This document shows, piece by piece, positions 11,756 through 18,560 of a stretch of 39,300 nucleotides of DNA. The notes below the pieces were generated by a model. The model had not been told where the DNA came from. It saw only the letters and a list, made by a program, of their open reading frames with translations, and did no database searches. The position numbers and the translations under genes were made by a program. The DNA is from Magnetospirillum fulvum MGU-K5 (GTDB lineage: Bacteria; Pseudomonadota; Alphaproteobacteria; Rhodospirillales; Magnetospirillaceae): positions 1 to 39,300 of the forward strand of contig NZ_AQPH01000030.1 of the NCBI RefSeq assembly GCF_000442515.1, written 5' to 3'. The number at the start of each line of letters is the position of its first letter. The first letter of the stretch is position 1.

Positions 11756-12685
11756 TCATCGTTGGGGAAGAGTAAAAACCTGCCCTGGATAAATCAGGTC
11801 GGGATTGCGGATGCGGTCGCGATTGGCGGTGAAGATCGACGTATAGGCGGTCCCTTCGCCATAGACGCGCCGCGCGATCCGCCACAGCGACGTTCCCGCC
11901 GAAACCACCACTTCGCCCGCGCCGGGACGGGCCAGCGGCGCACCCGGGGTCCAGGGGGTTTCGATCCGGGCCAGCACCTTGCCCTTGGGATCGACCAGAT
12001 CCACCCGCAGCCGGTGGCTGTCGCCGCCCGGCTTCGCTCCGGCGATGCGCCAGTTGCCGTCGGCATCGGCCTCGGCGCGGCCCAGGAAGCCGTCATCAAG
12101 ATAGACGTGAACCCGGCTGCCCGCCGGGGCCTTGCCCGACACGAACAGGCGGCCCTTATCGTCGTGATCGACCAGATCGAGCGATAACGCGCCGTCGCTC
12201 AGCCCGCCCGGCCCTTGCAACAACAAGGTGCCGCCGGTCGGCGCGCTTTTCAGTACCAGCGCCGGTCCGGCACCGCGTTCGGGCACCACCAGCACCACCG
12301 GGTTTCCGGATTCCAGAACCTCGCCGTCGGGGTTGACCGCCCTCAGCCGCAATTCACGGCTGCCCGGCGGTAAGGCTTCGGCCGGAACGAACACCCATTC
12401 GCCCCGCGGATCGGCGGTGACCCGCCCCAATTCGGTGTCGCCGTCGAGAATGATGACCTGTGCCCCCGGCTGGGCGCGCCCGGCAATCACCGAATTACCC
12501 TCGGTACCGATGCGGACGACGTCGAAGCTGGGGCGTCGGGCGTCGGGGATCGGCGCGCTGGCGGGAGCGGCCGCCGGGATGGATGCCGTGGGCGCGACCT
12601 CTTCGCGCTCGTGCTCGAAGGCGAGCAGGGCGGCGACGATCGCGACGGCAAGTCCAAAGAAGGCGACGAGGGTTGGTCGGGTCAA
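11756..12685 (-). CDS. LysM-domain cell-wall protein with Ig-like repeats
   Basis: A membrane-anchored periplasmic protein of about 309 residues. It begins with a signal anchor (LVAFFGLAVAIVAALLAF), then a low-complexity Ala/Pro stretch, then two Ig-like beta modules. The first contains SVIAGRAQPGAQVIIL and the second LFVSGKAPAGSRVHVYLDD. A C-terminal LysM domain follows (SAGTSLWRIARRVYGEG to NPDLIYPGQVFTLP), expected to bind peptidoglycan. The chosen TTG at 12685 has GAGG at a good distance. A longer reading from TTG at 12718 adds 11 residues with a weaker ribosome site. The family is common in alphaproteobacteria and has no assigned pathway. It is divergent to the cytochrome b561 gene, with about 150 bases between them for both promoters. 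Confidence 0.8.
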   Translation of the reverse strand: MTRPTLVAFFGLAVAIVAALLAFEHEREEVAPTASIPAAAPASAPIPDARRPSFDVVRIGTEGNSVIAGRAQPGAQVIILDGDTELGRVTADPRGEWVFVPAEALPPGSRELRLRAVNPDGEVLESGNPVVLVVPERGAGPALVLKSAPTGGTLLLQGPGGLSDGALSLDLVDHDDKGRLFVSGKAPAGSRVHVYLDDGFLGRAEADADGNWRIAGAKPGGDSHRLRVDLVDPKGKVLARIETPWTPGAPLARPGAGEVVVSAGTSLWRIARRVYGEGTAYTSIFTANRDRIRNPDLIYPGQVFTLPQR

Positions 12686-12839
12686 AGGAGCCTCGAAGGC
12701 TATGACAGAACGGGGCAAAGCCTATCAGGTCGACACCCCGCTGTCACGGTCATGCGACGCGCACGGGCATTCCCTGACTGGAAAAGCCCCCTGAGCGGTA
12801 CTACCTTATATTACCGCCATCGATTGAAGGAGTGCAGAG

Positions 12840-13538
12840 ATGTCCAAGGCCGATCTCTCCATCGGTCCCACCCAACGCGTCCGGGTGTGGGATTTGCCGG
12901 TCCGTCTGTTCCACTGGTCGTTGGCCGCTTTGTTCGCCGTGCTGTGGATCAGCGGGTATAACGGCAAGCTTGGCCTTCATCTGAGCGCCGGGGCGTTGAT
13001 CCTCACCCTGCTGCTGTTCCGGCTGGCCTGGGGATTTGGCGGCAGCCCCACCGCCCGCTTTTCCGGCTTTATCCGTGGGCCGGGGACGGTGTTCACCTAT
13101 CTGCGCCGGGGCAAGGAATCCGGGGTCTGGTCCGGACTGGGCCATAATCCGCTGGGCGGTTGGAGCGTGACCGTCCTGATCGGGCTCTTGCTGCTCCAGA
13201 CCGGGACCGGCCTGTTCTCGACCGACGATATCGCCACCGACGGGCCACTGGCCTGGGCGGTGTCGAGCGGGACGGTGAAGTCGCTGTCGTCGCTGCACCG
13301 GCTGGGCGGCTGGGTCCTGCTCGGTCTGGCCGGGTTGCACATTTCCGCGATTCTCTATTATCGCTTCGGTAAGAACGAAGACCTGATCACCCCGATGATC
13401 GGTGGCGAGGCGGATTTGTCTCCCGACATCGCCGCCCGCGCGCCCAAGGAGCCGTTCGCCAGCGGGCAAAAGGCCCTGGGTCTGCTGATCCTGGCCGCGT
13501 TGCTGGTGTATGGCGGGCTGGCGATCTGGGGGCGGTGA
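12840..13538 (+). CDS. Cytochrome b561 family membrane protein
   Basis: A 232-residue diheme-type membrane protein expected to pass electrons between quinol and a periplasmic or soluble partner. The N-terminal RVWDLPVRLFHWSLA carries the first heme-ligand His. Other candidate ligands are His 43 (LGLHLSAG) and the His residues in SSLHRLGG and GLHISAILYY. There are four core TM helices plus a C-terminal TM helix (about 212-230), which leaves a loop between helices 4 and 5. The ATG follows GAAGGAG. It stands alone; a hairpin repeat begins seven bases past the stop. Confidence 0.88.
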   Translation: MSKADLSIGPTQRVRVWDLPVRLFHWSLAALFAVLWISGYNGKLGLHLSAGALILTLLLFRLAWGFGGSPTARFSGFIRGPGTVFTYLRRGKESGVWSGLGHNPLGGWSVTVLIGLLLLQTGTGLFSTDDIATDGPLAWAVSSGTVKSLSSLHRLGGWVLLGLAGLHISAILYYRFGKNEDLITPMIGGEADLSPDIAARAPKEPFASGQKALGLLILAALLVYGGLAIWGR

Positions 13539-13544
13539 TCCTTC

Positions 13545-13672
13545 ATACCAACCGGCCAATGACTTGGCCGGTTGTATTGTCCCTCGCCGGGCGGGCGCAT
13601 CCGCGCCCTTGGCCGCCGCCGCAATGGCGGCCGGATACCGGCCAGTCGCTTAAGCCGAGGCTTGGCCGGTAT
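13545..13672 (+). repeat. Family B composite palindromic element, copy 1
   Basis: In order: an outer palindrome (CAACCGGCCAA / TTGGCCGGTTG at 13549-13574), CCCTC, GCCGGGC, a hairpin GGGCGC-ATCC-GCGCCC, TTGG, a hairpin GGCCGCC / GGCGGCC, and a second outer palindrome with 10-base arms ATACCGGCCA / TGGCCGGTAT (13635-13672). The same order of parts recurs at 16221-16356 and 16394-16562 with different stem sequences. The first palindrome may also terminate the cytochrome b561 transcript. Confidence 0.7.
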
Positions 13673-13769
13673 CTTTCCTTGCCAAAACGAGGTCGGACGG
13701 TGTAAACGACCCCCTTTCAAGCGCGGCACCCCTGGAGGCCGCGCCTTTTGTCCTGTCAGGAGTAAATCC

Positions 13770-14396
13770 ATGTCTGATGCGATCTCTATCGTCGCTGAAT
13801 TGCGCGATCGGAGCGGAAAGGGGGCCGCCCGTGCCGTTCGTCGTTCCGGTAAGGTGCCCGGAGTCATTTACGGCGAAAAGCAGGCTGCCGTCCTCGTCCA
13901 GTTCGATCCCCGCGTTCTGTGGGCCCAGCTGAACAAGCCCGGTTTCTACACCCAGCTGTTCGACATCGATCTCGGCAACGGCACCCGCGAGCGCGCCCTG
14001 GCCCGCGACGTCCAGTTCCACCCGGTTTCGGACCAGCCGGTCCACGTCGATTTCCTGCGCGTGTCGGCCGACCATGCCATCCACGTCAAGGTGCCGGTCC
14101 ACGTCGCTAACGAGCTGAAGTCTCCGGGCGTCAAGAAGGGCGGCGTCGTCAATATCGAGCTGCACGAAATCGAGCTGGTGTGCAGCCCCGATGCGATCCC
14201 GCACGGCCTGACCGTCGATATCTCGGCGCTTGAGATCGGTCATTCGGTCCACCTGAAGGACATCGCTCTCCCCGCCGGGGTGAAGCCCTACCACCTGTCG
14301 CCCGAGGTCACCGTGATCTCGATCTCCGCGCCGACCGTTGCTCTGGCCGCGGCCGAGGGCGAAGCGGCTCCGGCCACTCCGGCGGCTGCCGGCTGA
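13770..14396 (+). CDS. rplY: 50S ribosomal protein L25 / general stress protein Ctc
   Basis: A 208-residue L25 of the long (Ctc/TL5) type that binds 5S rRNA. The N-terminal L25 domain (residues 1-95) contains [24 protein letters not shown]-terminal beta domain (about 100-190) follows, then an Ala-rich tail. The ATG at 13770 follows CAGGAG; an in-frame extension to 13572 runs back through a repeat and is rejected. It is followed one base after its stop by pth, a common bacterial pairing. Confidence 0.96.
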
Positions 14397-14397
14397 C

Positions 14398-15114
14398 ATG
14401 CTGTTACTGGTGGGACTGGGCAATCCCGGCCCGGACTACGCCAGGAATCGGCATAATATCGGCTTCATGGCGGCGGACCTTCTGGCCCGCCGCCATTCCT
14501 TCGGACCTTGGCGGTCGCGCTTCCAGGGCGAGACCGCCGAGGGAAGCATCAACGGCGAGAAGGTGTTGGCGCTAAAGCCTGCCACCTTCATGAATCTGTC
14601 CGGCCAGTCGGTGGCCGCAGCGGCCCGTTTCCTCAAGATTCCCCTGTCCGATATCGTCGTGCTGCATGACGAACTCGATCTGCCGCCCGGTCGGCTGCGG
14701 GTCAAGACCGGCGGTGGGGCCGGGGGACATAACGGCCTCAAAAGCATCGATTCCCATCTCGGCAAGGAGTATCGCCGGGTCCGGCTCGGCATCGGCCATC
14801 CCGGCGACAAGGATCGGGTGGCGGGCTATGTGCTGTCCGATTTCGCCAAGGCCGACGAAAGCTGGCTGCCGCCGCTGCTCGACGCCGTGGCCGAGTCCTT
14901 TCCGTTGCTGCTGAGTGGTGACGAGGCCGGATTCATGAACCGTGTCAGCGTCCTGACCCAGCCGCCGAAGCCCAAGAGTGTGCGGCCCCCCGCGCCGGCG
15001 CTCCCGTCGGGAGCCGCGCCCGCCGCGCCTCCCTCCGAACCGCCCCCGCCCTCTGGCGGTGCCTTGGCCGAGGCGCTGCGTGCGGCGATGACCAAACCCT
15101 TCAGGAAGGATTAG
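14398..15114 (+). CDS. pth: Peptidyl-tRNA hydrolase
   Basis: A 238-residue enzyme that releases peptides from stalled peptidyl-tRNA. Family motifs are present: [20 protein letters not shown] at the N-terminus (with the catalytic His), [20 protein letters not shown] and [12 protein letters not shown]. The normal domain ends near residue 190. A Pro/Ala-rich tail of about 45 residues follows and ends in a short amphipathic helix, which is longer than in E. coli. It begins one base after the rplY stop with no clear ribosome site, so it is probably translated by coupling. Confidence 0.96.
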
Positions 15115-15120
15115 ACCCCC

Positions 15121-16224
15121 ATGGGCTTCAATTGCGGCATCGTCGGCCTGCCCAACGTCGGCAAGAGCACCCTGTTCAACGCGCTGACCCAGACCGCGGC
15201 GGCTCAGGCGGCCAATTATCCCTTCTGCACCATCGAGCCGAATGTCGGCCGCGTTGCCGTGCCCGATCCCCGGCTTGACCAACTGGTTGTGATCGCCAAG
15301 AGCCAGAAGGAAATCCCGACCCAGCTTGAATTCGTCGATATCGCCGGTCTGGTGCGTGGCGCCAGCAAGGGCGAAGGGCTGGGCAACCAGTTCCTCGCCA
15401 ATATCCGCGAGGTCGATGCGATCGTCCACGTCCTGCGCTGTTTCGAGGATGGCGACATCACCCATGTCGAGGGCAATGTCGATCCGGTCCGCGATGCCGA
15501 GACGATTGAGACCGAGTTGATGCTGGCCGATCTCGATTCGCTCGAACGCCGCTTCACCCCGCTCGAGAAGAAGGCGAAGAACAACGACAAGGAAGCCAAG
15601 GCCCAGGTCGAGGTGATGGCTCCGCTGTTGGCCGCCCTGCGGGAAGGCAAGCCCGCCCGCACCGTCCGCTTCGACGACGAGGACCAGCGCCGGATCGTCC
15701 GCACCCTTGGTCTGATGACGACTAAGCCGGTCCTCTATGTCTGCAACGTCGATGAGGCCAGCGCCGCCACCGGCAACGATTTCTCGGCCAAGGTCGCCGC
15801 CTTTGCCGCCGCCGAGGGCAACAGCCACGTCGTGATCTCGGCCGCGATCGAAGCCGAAATCGCCCAGATCGGTTCCGACGAAGAGCGGGCCGAATTCCTC
15901 GAAACCCTGGGGCTGGGCGAAACCGGCCTGACCCGGGTGATCCGCGCCGGGTACGAGTTGCTCCACCTCGTCACCTTCTTCACCGTTGGTCCCAAGGAAG
16001 CCCGCGCCTGGACGGTGCAGAAGGGGGCCAAGGCTCCCAACGCCGCCGGGGTGATCCACACCGATTTCGAACGCGGCTTCATCCGCGCCGAAACCGTCGC
16101 CTATGACGATTTCATCGCCTGCGGTGGCGAGGCCGGATCGAAGGAAGCGGGCAAGATGCGGCTGGAGGGCAAGGAATACGTCGTTCAGGACGGCGACATC
16201 TTCCACTTCCTTTTCAACGTCTAA
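15121..16224 (+). CDS. ychF: Redox-regulated ATPase YchF (OBG family)
   Basis: A 367-residue OBG-family P-loop protein that binds ATP rather than GTP and associates with ribosomes. G1 (GLPNVGKSTLFNAL), the G3 region (DIAGLVRGASKGEGLGNQFL) and NVDE in place of the NKxD guanine motif are visible. A coiled coil lies at about residues 130-190, and a C-terminal TGS domain ends KEYVVQDGDIFHFLFNV. It lies six bases after pth, with AAGGA upstream, so it forms an operon rplY-pth-ychF, as in many proteobacteria. Its stop codon is inside the first arm of a repeat palindrome. Confidence 0.97.
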   Translation: MGFNCGIVGLPNVGKSTLFNALTQTAAAQAANYPFCTIEPNVGRVAVPDPRLDQLVVIAKSQKEIPTQLEFVDIAGLVRGASKGEGLGNQFLANIREVDAIVHVLRCFEDGDITHVEGNVDPVRDAETIETELMLADLDSLERRFTPLEKKAKNNDKEAKAQVEVMAPLLAALREGKPARTVRFDDEDQRRIVRTLGLMTTKPVLYVCNVDEASAATGNDFSAKVAAFAAAEGNSHVVISAAIEAEIAQIGSDEERAEFLETLGLGETGLTRVIRAGYELLHLVTFFTVGPKEARAWTVQKGAKAPNAAGVIHTDFERGFIRAETVAYDDFIACGGEAGSKEAGKMRLEGKEYVVQDGDIFHFLFNV

Positions 16225-16356
16225 AGCATGACGCATTCAATCTGCATCACGCTTTAGACGATTCAGATATCCCCCTCGCCGGGCGCCACCTCCGGTGGCT
16301 TGGCCACGGCCGCAATGGCCGCAATCGCATCGTGCGTCAGATTTGACGCACGATGC
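16221..16356 (+). repeat. Family B composite palindromic element, copy 2
   Basis: An outer inverted repeat with 15-base arms (13 match; CTAAAGCATGACGCA at 16221) ends at 16257. Then come CCCTCGCCGGGC, a hairpin GCCACC-TCC-GGTGGC, TTGG, a weaker GGCC hairpin, and a second outer palindrome with perfect 13-base arms (GCATCGTGCGTCA / TGACGCACGATGC, 16327-16356). The order is as in the copy at 13545, but stem sequences differ. The first arm overlaps the ychF stop and may be used as its terminator. Confidence 0.7.
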
Positions 16357-16393
16357 TCTAGACTGTTGGGGGCGTTTGCCCCCACACCCCCAA

Positions 16394-16562
16394 TCGGGAG
16401 GCTTATACCAAGCTGCACGGACCGGACCGATCCGTGCAGGCCCTCATTTGCCGGGCGCGGCCCATCCGGGCCGCTTGGCTTCGCGCCACGAGGCGCGCAG
16501 CCCTTCGGGCCTAACCAAACTGCATGAGTTCCACTCAATGCAGTTTGGTATTAGCCTCCCGA
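16394..16562 (+). repeat. Family B element, copy 3, with 18-base terminal inverted repeats
   Basis: A 169-base element bounded by TCGGGAGGCTTATACCAA and the reverse complement of TCGGGAGGCTAATACCAA (17 of 18 match). Inside are a CTGCACGGA / TCCGTGCAG hairpin, CCCTCATTTGCCGGGC, a hairpin GCGGCCC-ATCC-GGGCCGC, TTGG, a hairpin CGCGCC-ACGA-GGCGCG, GCCC-TTC-GGGC, and a near-perfect palindrome at 16511-16554. It has no coding capacity and no clear target duplication. It looks like a MITE or REP/BIME-type element. The remaining gap to 16649 holds another 9-base hairpin (ACCCCCGGG at 16595). Confidence 0.7.
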
Positions 16563-16649
16563 ACCCTCCGGATATCTAGCGTTTTGGGATCGTCACCCCC
16601 GGGCGTGACCCGGGGGTCGGCCATGACGGGTCGGCTGTTTCTAACTCAT

Positions 16650-16685
16650 TAAAATAAAAAGAAACGGGTCCGGGCGGTTGCCCGG
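16650..16685 (-). terminator. Intrinsic terminator of the small RHH-like gene
   Basis: On the minus strand a CCGGGC-AACC-GCCCGG stem is followed within six bases by TTTCTTTTTATTTT. It lies 30 bases past the stop at 16715. This supports the small gene as a real transcription unit. Confidence 0.75.
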
Positions 16686-16714
16686 CCGCGCAGCGGGATT
16701 TGTCCGCCCCGTCC

Positions 16715-16912
16715 TCAATCGATGCCGTAATCCTGGATGCGGACGACGTAATCGCTGCTGCCGCCCAACTGGCTGCGCAAGGTGGCGGCGTCCTCGCAAT
16801 CGATGACGAAGGTTCGGATCGCGTCGAGCGCGCATTCCTCGGGTTTACGGCCCAGAGTGCGGGCGGCGGTATACAGGCGCTGGGCGAGATCGAGGGGGAT
16901 GTCGATACGCAC
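16715..16912 (-). CDS. Small ribbon-helix-helix-like protein
   Basis: A 65-residue protein. The N-terminal strand RIDIPLDLAQRLYTAARTLG and the helix RKPEECALDAIRTFVIDCED resemble the beta-alpha-alpha fold of CopG/Arc-type DNA-binding antitoxins. A short tail (GGSSDYVVRIQDYGID) follows. A GTG start at 16912 has AAGGAG eight bases upstream; a TTG two codons earlier is too close to that site. No toxin-like gene is adjacent: prfC is divergent, and only repeats lie downstream. A good intrinsic terminator follows. It could be an orphan transcriptional regulator or a solitary antitoxin. Confidence 0.65.
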   Translation of the reverse strand: MRIDIPLDLAQRLYTAARTLGRKPEECALDAIRTFVIDCEDAATLRSQLGGSSDYVVRIQDYGID

Positions 16913-16973
16913 CGACAAGGCTCCTTTGCTATTTTCTTGATTCTCGCTCCGGTTCCGACGAAAACCCAGCACC

Positions 16974-18560
16974 ATGAGCTCGCTGACCGACCATATCGCG
17001 CTTCGGCGCACCTTCGCCATCATCTCCCACCCCGATGCGGGTAAGACCACGCTGACGGAAAAGCTGCTGCTGTTCGGCGGAGCGATCCAGCTGGCCGGTG
17101 CCGTGCGTGCGCGCGGCGAACAGCGCCGCACCCGTTCGGACTGGATGGCGATCGAAAAAGAGCGCGGCATTTCGGTGTCGGCCTCGGTGATGACGTTCGA
17201 GCATGAAGGGATGACCTTCAACCTGCTCGACACGCCTGGCCACGAAGACTTTTCCGAGGACACTTACCGCACCCTGACCGCCGTCGATTCGGCGATCATG
17301 GTGCTGGATGCGGCCAAGGGTATCGAAACCCAGACCCGCAAGCTGTTCGAGGTCTGTCGTCTGCGCGACGTGCCGATCGTCACCTTCATCAACAAGGTTG
17401 ACCGCGAAGGCCGCGAGACTTTCGATCTGCTCGACGAGATCGAGAAGACGCTGGCGCTCGATGTCTCGCCGGTGACGTGGCCGATCGGGATGGGCCGCGA
17501 TCTGAAGGGCGTTTACGACCTGACCCGCGATCGCGTCATCCTGTTCGATCCCGGTCGCGGCGATCACATCGCCGAAATCGGTCTCGATGCCACCCTGGAT
17601 TCGCCCGAACTCGACCGCGCCGTAGGCAAGGCGGCGGCGGAGAAGCTGCGCGAAGAGGTCGAGTTGGTCCGCGCTGGGTTCCCCGAATTCGATATCGAGG
17701 CGTTCCGCGCCGGTCACCAGACCCCGGTGTTCTTCGGCAGCGCGCTGAAGACCTTCGGTGTCGCCGAATTGCTGCGCGGCGTCGGCCGGTTGTCGCCGCC
17801 GCCGATGGCGCGCAAGGCCGCGACCCGCACCGTTGCTCCCGACGAGACCAAGGTCACCGGCTTCGTCTTCAAGGTCCAGGCCAACATGGACCCCAACCAC
17901 CGCGACCGGATCGCCTTCTTCCGAATCTGCTCGGGCACGTTCCGGCGCGGGATGAAGCTGCGCCACGTCCGCACCGGCAAGGCGATGGCTCTGGTCAACC
18001 CGGTGTTCTTCCTCGCCCGCGACCGTGAACTGGCCGAGGAAGCGTTCCCCGGCGACATCATGGGCATTCCCAATCACGGCCAGTTGCGGATCGGCGATAC
18101 CTTGTCTGAATCCGAGGATTTGAACTTCCTCGGCATCCCGACCTTTGCCCCCGAAGTGCTGCGCCGGGTTCGGCTCGATGATCCGATGAAGGCCAAGCAA
18201 TTGAAGAAGGCGTTGGAGGATCTGGCCGAGGAAGGCGTCAGCCAGGTGTTCAAGCCCCAGGACGGCTCGACCTGGATCGTCGGTGTGGTCGGACCGTTGC
18301 AGTTCGACGTGCTGACCACCCGGATCGAAAGCGAATATTCGATCAAGGCCGGGTTCGAAGAAGCACCGTTCGTCACCGCCCGCTGGGTCGCCTGCGATGA
18401 CGACGCGACGTTGCGCCGCTTCATCGATTCCAACAAATCCAACATGGCCGAGGATCGCGACGGCGGGCTGGTCTATCTCGCCCGCAATTCTTGGCAATTG
18501 ACCCGCGCCCAGCAGGATTTCGAAACCGTCCGCTTTACCGCGACCCGCGAACAGCATTAA
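16974..18560 (+). CDS. prfC: Peptide chain release factor 3
   Basis: A 528-residue translational GTPase that recycles RF1/RF2 from the ribosome after peptide release. G1 (SHPDAGKTTLTEKLL), G2 (RGISVSASVM), G3 (DTPGHEDFSEDTYR) and G4 (NKVD) are visible. Domains II and III follow, with GVVGPLQFDVL. The length fits the family. It is divergent to the small RHH-like gene with 61 bases between them, and a strong hairpin follows at 18588. Confidence 0.97.
   Translation: MSSLTDHIALRRTFAIISHPDAGKTTLTEKLLLFGGAIQLAGAVRARGEQRRTRSDWMAIEKERGISVSASVMTFEHEGMTFNLLDTPGHEDFSEDTYRTLTAVDSAIMVLDAAKGIETQTRKLFEVCRLRDVPIVTFINKVDREGRETFDLLDEIEKTLALDVSPVTWPIGMGRDLKGVYDLTRDRVILFDPGRGDHIAEIGLDATLDSPELDRAVGKAAAEKLREEVELVRAGFPEFDIEAFRAGHQTPVFFGSALKTFGVAELLRGVGRLSPPPMARKAATRTVAPDETKVTGFVFKVQANMDPNHRDRIAFFRICSGTFRRGMKLRHVRTGKAMALVNPVFFLARDRELAEEAFPGDIMGIPNHGQLRIGDTLSESEDLNFLGIPTFAPEVLRRVRLDDPMKAKQLKKALEDLAEEGVSQVFKPQDGSTWIVGVVGPLQFDVLTTRIESEYSIKAGFEEAPFVTARWVACDDDATLRRFIDSNKSNMAEDRDGGLVYLARNSWQLTRAQQDFETVRFTATREQH

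Follow-up and report, generated by a model that had tools for sequence, protein, structure and literature searches.

Miniature inverted-repeat transposable elements (MITEs) and repetitive extragenic palindromic (REP) sequences, together with REP doublets forming hairpins (REPINs) and bacterial interspersed mosaic elements (BIMEs), are the described systems closest to a family of composite hairpin repeats, three copies of which (elements 1, 2 and 3) lie in a 39,300-nt stretch of the genome of Magnetospirillum fulvum MGU-K5 (contig NZ_AQPH01000030.1, positions 1 to 39,300; the window in what follows). As in MITEs, the repeats are short (126, 133 and 145 nt), have no transposase open reading frame (ORF), possess terminal inverted repeats and short target duplications, and are mostly intergenic and multicopy with empty sites in relatives. 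They differ from MITEs in that a single internal hairpin core is combined with two types of terminus and also occurs unboxed and in arrays, no parent insertion sequence (IS) was found among the loci scanned, and the core is GC-rich, whereas the accessible text of PMC10969869 describes MITEs as typically AT-rich. GC-rich extragenic hairpins, a tagged stem, arrays and compensatory changes are shared with REP, REPIN and BIME sequences as described in the accessible parts of PMC3116915 and PMC3733652; the differences are that no GTAG tag is present, no REP-associated tyrosine transposase (RAYT) was found in the own genome, and the ends are composite with a TNA duplication. GTAG is absent from all three elements, and CGTC occurs only in element 2, by eye in an outer stem.

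Other palindromic repeats of alphaproteobacteria are the rhizobial mosaic elements RIME/ABC, the Rickettsia palindromic elements and the Brucella Bru-RS. The Escherichia coli intrastrand triplex repeat TM_ECO is likewise GC-rich, CCCTC-containing and intergenic, with no strand bias and variable loci, and it differs in its consensus, CCCTCNCCC..GGGNGAGGG, which is without the GCCGGGC/NTCC/TTGGC core (accessible text of PMC4666352). No description of this core was found in the literature searched, which included the accessible parts of PMC3733652, PMC3116915, PMC10969869, PMC4666352 and PMC8794818, most subscription papers being outside its coverage. No Rfam match at gathering score was obtained in seven loci, and all six Rfam matches in window positions 12500-17500 were sub-threshold; as far as these searches reach, the repeat is unclassified and without an Rfam match. 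One of the sub-threshold matches in the window is to sucA-II at 16591-16779 (24.8 bits against a gathering score of 70) and is probably due to chance.

We read the three elements as small non-autonomous mobile repeats, MITE/REP-like composites with a two-hairpin core whose pairing is kept at the DNA level, and give this reading a probability of about 0.78. They would be insertions of MITE/REP-like repeats of 126-145 nt in which the shared core is boxed by outer hairpins, and the notable new feature is a covarying hairpin core common to different MITE types. The order CCCTC, GCCGGGC, TCC-loop hairpin, TTGG and second hairpin, inside outer hairpins, which a sequence-only reading had proposed, is present at all three sites (Table 1). 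The outer palindromes of that reading do exist in elements 1 and 2, but as one hairpin per end, and the outermost arms assigned to element 3 (16396-16402 and 16554-16560) are a pre-existing terminator-like hairpin behind a GTPase gene that we take to be ychF, the loop of which was the insertion site. The outer parts are homologous only to a limited extent: elements 1 and 3 have TACC...GGTA ends, and element 2 has AAGCATG...GATGC. Compared with dinucleotide shuffles, the stretches of element 1 (13545-13674), element 2 (16218-16362) and element 3 (16394-16540, which ends before the element's own end) fold with z values of -5.25, -6.83 and -4.08, with 0 of 200 shuffles as good in each case. The core pattern matched three times in the window against 0.23 expected, a number attained by 1 of 100 shuffles. 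A covariance model of the 28-nt core, R2, built from 18 cores, matched element 1 at 13586-13613 (E 6.3e-7). The genes beside element 1 are presumably cytochrome-b-like and L25-like.

Table 1. Coordinates of the composite repeats, their parts and the adjoining gene in the window. HP2 and HP3, first and second core hairpin.
Feature	Coordinates	Strand	Description
Element 1	13546..13671	+	126-nt composite, ends TACC...GGTA (type II); flanks TCA/TCT
Element 1, 5' outer hairpin	13549..13574	+	CAACCGGCCAA-TGAC-TTGGCCGGTTG; from fold
Element 1 core	13579..13631	+	GTCCCTC-GCCGGGC-HP2-TTGGC-HP3; common to Tistrella, Asticcacaulis and Niveispirillum plasmids
Element 1 HP2	13593..13608	+	GGGCGC-ATCC-GCGCCC
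Element 1 HP3	13615..13631	+	GCCGCC-GCAAT-GGCGGC
Element 1, 3' outer hairpin	13633..13671	+	ATACCGGCCA...TGGCCGGTA; from fold
ychF-like GTPase gene	15121..16224	+	ORF; elements 2 and 3 inserted at 3' end
Element 2	16224..16356	+	133-nt composite, other ends (type III), at ychF stop codon
Element 2 core hairpin	16278..16304	+	GCCGGGC-GCCACC-TCC-GGTGGC-TTGGC; R2 E 0.0035
Element 3 target	16396..16560	+	terminator-like hairpin GGGAGGC (16396-16402) / GCCTCCC (16554-16560), divided by insertion
Element 3	16406..16550	+	145-nt composite, ends TACC...GGTA (type I); flanks TTA (16403-16405) and TTA (16551-16553)
Element 3 core hairpin	16450..16479	+	GCCGGGC-GCGGCCC-ATCC-GGGCCGC-TTGGC; R2 E 2.7e-4

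Across the copies collected, the core consists of CCCTC, zero or four bases (mostly ANNC), GCCGGGC, HP2 with an NTCC loop, TTGGC, and HP3, which follows directly or after a spacer. Of the 70 different HP2 stems, 45 consist of Watson-Crick pairs throughout; in seven a TC/TC internal loop leaves only the outer and the inner pairs, and others have mismatches. About seven own-genome copies with the TC/TC loop form four of the six pairs. The HP3 loop is often [TGC]CAA[TC], which was found within 45 nt in 168 of 340 copies, and its inner four stem positions are fully paired in 113 of these 168. Cores are boxed by outer hairpins (as are the three of the window), unboxed, or repeated head to tail in arrays, whose units measured about 60 to 110 nt where examined. 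By eye, extra hairpin-like sequence seems to lie inside the HP3 loop at loci L106, L119 and L008, so that palindromes may nest. Rickettsia palindromic elements are coding repeats; a coding repeat was rejected here because the core is 27, 28, 29 or 30 nt long, so that the reading frame shifts from copy to copy.

That the elements form one repeat family with a shared core was borne out, and the family reaches far outside the window. In the own genome, an assembly of 178 contigs and 3.77 Mb, the core pattern gave 47 matches against four for the reversed pattern, about ten of the 47 looking chance-like by eye. One covariance model, R1, was derived from eight own-genome copies; with R2, 46 own-genome matches were obtained at E<=1 and 37 at E<=0.1. 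At the latter threshold 43 of 60 genomes were matched, namely the own genome, 16/16 of the same genus, 16/19 of the same family and 10/24 of other families of the order, several of these last ten having a single match (weakest E 0.03). The highest count per genome was at least 125, a lower bound because 125 candidates were scored in each genome. In a sample of the class comprising 142 genomes, including the own, 12 were matched at E<=0.01. A pattern scan of named genomes returned at least 120 stretches, and the titles of 80 of them list Magnetospirillum, Paramagnetospirillum, Phaeospirillum, Azospirillum, Niveispirillum, Nitrospirillum, Roseomonas, Falsiroseomonas, Telmatospirillum, Tistrella and Erythrobacter among the matches. 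Eight plasmid records also matched (Tistrella 4, Asticcacaulis 3, Niveispirillum 1). These matches fall within query positions 21-91 of 130, seven of the eight beginning at 28 or later, so that what is widely shared is the core and not the outer hairpins; the best pTM2 match spans 35-87, which is the core of element 1. In viral-database contigs, 43 stretches matched the pattern. The putative viral contig IMGVR_UViG_2708742415_000004 has 21 pattern matches in three stretches (L263, L292 and L295), and its arrays are mostly homogeneous inside, with stems that differ from array to array.

The elements are demonstrably mobile. Genome G006, whose Pth protein is 96% identical, is without elements 2 and 3 at locus L127: the empty site of element 2, ACGTCTAGATTG, reads through TCTA, and that of element 3, GGGAGGCTTTGGCCTCCC, is unbroken, i.e. 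a GGGAGGC-TTTG-GCCTCCC hairpin. Element 1 has an orthologue with a different core stem at this locus of G006 and is missing from the orthologous site (L128) of G004 (Pth 92% identical), a genome in which the ychF end was not recovered by the search string used. An own-genome copy at L018 is absent from G006. Within the window, element 3 is flanked by TTA/TTA and element 2 by TCTA/TCTA (or CTA; 16220-16223 and 16357-16360), and since element 2 combines this duplication with other ends, two or more MITE types carry one core.

Target duplication was assessed in 43 composites with a single GGTA candidate, composites with several candidates being excluded (62 candidate pairs overall). Matching TNA 3-mers were found directly outside TACC...GGTA in 28 of the 43, and in 0 or 1 of the 43 at offsets 1-6. 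When the pairing of the flanks was shuffled, the mean was 9.2 matches, which is as high as this because most flanks are T-N-A, and the maximum was 17 in 1000. A scan of 2.0 Mb for TNA-TACC..GGTA-TNA yielded 43 elements, and four control ends yielded 0, 1, 0 and 1. The strict pattern recognized an intact core in 32 of these 43, and of the other 11, judged by eye, eight have a degenerate one and three, which are short, have none. At least 8 of 12 terminal bases match as inverted repeats in 31 of the 32 intact-core elements, four of the bases being fixed by the search. For a bare core, 17 genomes were matched and the loci of seven relatives compared: G004 has one unit, G006 a remnant of the 5' part, and five have none. 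In the own genome the bare unit is flanked by direct repeats of its 5' part, so that recombination can alter the number of units. By eye, near-identical sequence stands directly before truncated repeat copies at L016 and L024 (G000 contigs C9 and C27, first 480 bases), an arrangement that looks like an insertion sequence landed in the repeat.

TNA duplication is reminiscent of IS1031-type members of the IS5 family and of PIF/Harbinger elements. Judging from the duplication, elements 1 and 3 would have been moved in trans by a DDE transposase cutting TNA targets, presumably IS5/IS1031-like, and the core may have passed as a module from one MITE type to another, through insertion or recombination.

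The covariation of the stems is real. Among 196 copies with a 16-nt hairpin, from loci fetched by a pattern in which pairing was not requested, 176 have all six Watson-Crick pairs, as compared with 11.5% after right arms were shuffled between copies, and 32 of the 47 distinct stems in this set are fully paired; the statement that the stems always pair is thus correct for the three elements of the window and too strong elsewhere. Fully paired copies numbered 119 of 132 in the genome-contig subset, where the search pattern fixed the outermost G-C pair, and 241 of 267 in a mixed sample, to which the 196-copy subset was preferred because the mixed sample held loci fetched by a pairing-aware model. 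In an alignment of 48 distinct rows (96 matches, 80 loci outside the R2 training set), the covariation score was 0.403; shuffles scored 0.088 (sd 0.013) and slid partners no more than 0.059. Double-changed cells numbered 82 against 26.5. Two weaker measures were the pairs with a double change (6 vs 4.2, attained by 5/500 shuffles) and further pair types (15 vs 12.3, attained by 25/500). Being fitted to the model, the alignment leans towards structure, and rows that are related do not count as independent.

Almost no change was seen in the lower helix GCCGG/TTGGC, whose one double-changed pair, in three units of the L202 array, probably reflects one event. In this Novispirillum array (L202:2980-3243) tag and lower helix changed together (GGCGGGC...TTGCC). 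The GCCGGGC, NTCC and TTGGC columns hardly vary in the alignment, although the pattern that fetched the loci fixes them. The earlier argument that compensatory change points to selection on a fold rather than on primary sequence therefore holds as to the change itself and not as to the contrast, since primary sequence is conserved too. Moreover, covariation need not mean selection, since by template switching one arm can be recopied from the other; such switching is a documented source of compensatory changes (accessible text of PMC8794818).

Comparison of orthologous copies indicates how the stems change. The orthologues L011 and L316 (flanks 97% identical) have GCGGGC-ATCC-GCCCGC and GCCCGC-CTCC-GCGGGC, respectively; their outer hairpins have T-A versus G-C on both arms, and few other differences occur over 300 aligned bases. 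The L316 stem was seen once among the fetched G006 loci, alongside one near-identical relative, and is absent from the fetched own loci; conversion from another copy is possible for this pair because both genomes have the outer GAGACC form of L316 at other places too. Between element 1 and its orthologue (L025/L127) the core stem differs as a block, and at L127 the left flank GCCGGGC is replaced by GGCCCAAGC, a near-complement of the right flank GCTTGGCC, a rewriting which looks like the footprint expected of a template switch. Stems are unchanged in the matching-flank pairs L054/L105, L065/L331, L116/L206 and L274/L289 and changed in L093/L094, L106/L117 and L102/L121; they are also changed in L089/L110, L109/L162 and L243/L273, where flanks are only 71-89% identical and orthology is less sure. 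In the L117 array the arms decay unrepaired, with right arms GGCCGC, GACCGC and GACCAC.

Genes around the copies were called with a purpose-made codon-usage caller, chance-like copies (stem of fewer than four pairs and no CCCTC) being removed beforehand. Only 6 of 117 copies (L001-L125) are inside predicted genes and 111 outside. When one copy per locus, strand and configuration was counted (n=95), the gene on the 5' side of the core was sense in 48 and antisense in 42, and 29 intergenes were convergent and 9 divergent. For the gene on the 3' side, the stop codon faces the core in 67 of 94 cases and the start in 27 (L001-L125). In the reverse complement of copies with the four-base insert, GAGGG is exactly 9 nt before ATG in 19 of 193, the background being 3.5 per offset on average with 14 at offset 29; the count of 16/193 at 8 nt is largely outer-hairpin sequence. 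Copies without the insert have no peak at 9 nt (1/97), and of the 85 called genes that face the core with their start, only 8 begin at this distance. Antisense cores with GAGGG 9 nt from ATG include L107, L110, L240, L241, L244, L267 and L302. To judge by this spacing, the repeat may supply a ribosome-binding site via GAGGG.

Several explanations compete for these data. That the core acts in transcripts, as a 3' or 5' untranslated-region stabiliser, terminator or protein-binding site whose stems covary by RNA selection, would fit the strong covariation, the lower helix GCCGG/UUGGC, which as read from the sequence pairs fully only on the plus strand with two conserved G-U pairs, the change on both sides of its second pair in the three L202 units, and the GAGGG placed before ATG. 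Were a transcript the functional form, one gene orientation should dominate; instead both occur in near-equal numbers on the 5' side, mismatches among the 70 distinct stems show no G-T excess (G-T 4, A-C 10), and the Rfam searches gave nothing above threshold. The orientation and mismatch data weaken RNA selection, and selection on a folded RNA, which the sequence-only reading named beside single-stranded DNA, now appears rather improbable. A REP/REPIN system, moved by a RAYT (a Y1 HUH transposase) acting on the single-stranded hairpin, is suggested by short GC-rich hairpins lying mostly outside genes, by arrays and by a conserved 5' tag beside the stem, and REPINs also show compensatory changes (accessible text of PMC3116915). 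The RAYT gene that such a system calls for was sought as PF01797 (Y1 transposase), of which no match was found in the own 178-contig assembly, in 12 of 16 same-genus genomes, or in the core-rich G001, G021, G046 and G050, which have 94 to at least 125 core matches, while some core-rich genomes (G017, G040) have one match. RAYT/IS200 mobilisation was accordingly rejected, and with the missing GTAG and with CGTC confined to element 2 the whole explanation is very unlikely. A Caulobacter-type CcrM-associated intergenic repeat (CIR), tied to GANTC methylation, is also an intergenic repeat of an alphaproteobacterium (accessible text of PMC10969869), but GANTC occurs near 73 of 302 copies and 69 of 302 controls; the link was rejected, and identity with CIR is scarcely credible.

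Pure mutational upkeep would make the core junk, its palindrome held only by quasi-palindrome correction and gene conversion. The block differences between orthologues, the near-complementary flanks of L127 and the uncorrected decay in the L117 array agree with it, but NTCC, GCCGGGC and TTGGC are constant between types with different stems and outer parts, which mutation alone would not bring about, and we hold this explanation to be unlikely. Our own reading, small mobile repeats with pairing kept at the DNA level, supposes that the core persists as a hairpin or cruciform, that template switching or short-tract conversion at replication would re-template the arms and restore perfect stems, and that a protein reading the loop and flanks perhaps assists. 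Several observations weigh against it. Flanks and loop are so nearly constant as to suggest a reader of the sequence, and upkeep by mutation alone leaves this unexplained. In L011/L316 two neighbouring base pairs are flipped, an outcome that a single simple template switch would not give if the stem was perfect, and the duplication of element 1 is imperfect (TCA/TCT). The bare core has no defined insertion boundaries, the one examined site being a gain or loss between direct repeats. Tandem intergenes are weakly antisense-biased (33 vs 18 sense, p 0.049). A scan of the fetched loci for TNA-TACC..GGTA-TNA elements of 500-3500 bp gave one weak candidate, L281, with 9/14 terminal bases, no better than one of four control ends, which gave three candidates. 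No TACC..GGTA ends with TNA duplication were found at 16 PF01609 loci (G000, G006 and G001), several of which are cut by contig ends, other transposase families not being searched. Selfish DNA with a hairpin kept in shape at the DNA level is nevertheless the likeliest account of these sequences. A more speculative and doubtful extension is that the core is a replicating class-wide module, read as folded single-stranded DNA through loop and flanks by a non-Y1 enzyme, hitch-hiking in unrelated MITEs, with a stem continually re-templated and only shape and tags inherited.

An RNA fold is usually accepted as functional on the strength of compensatory base changes, and the repeat described here is a caution for covariation-based RNA discovery. 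With hundreds of mobile copies, some of them orthologous, and with stems that change in blocks between a fixed loop and fixed flanks, it offers a natural test of selection versus template switching. In single alphaproteobacterial genomes this unclassified repeat places tens to more than 100 hairpins, sometimes at Shine-Dalgarno distance from an ATG.

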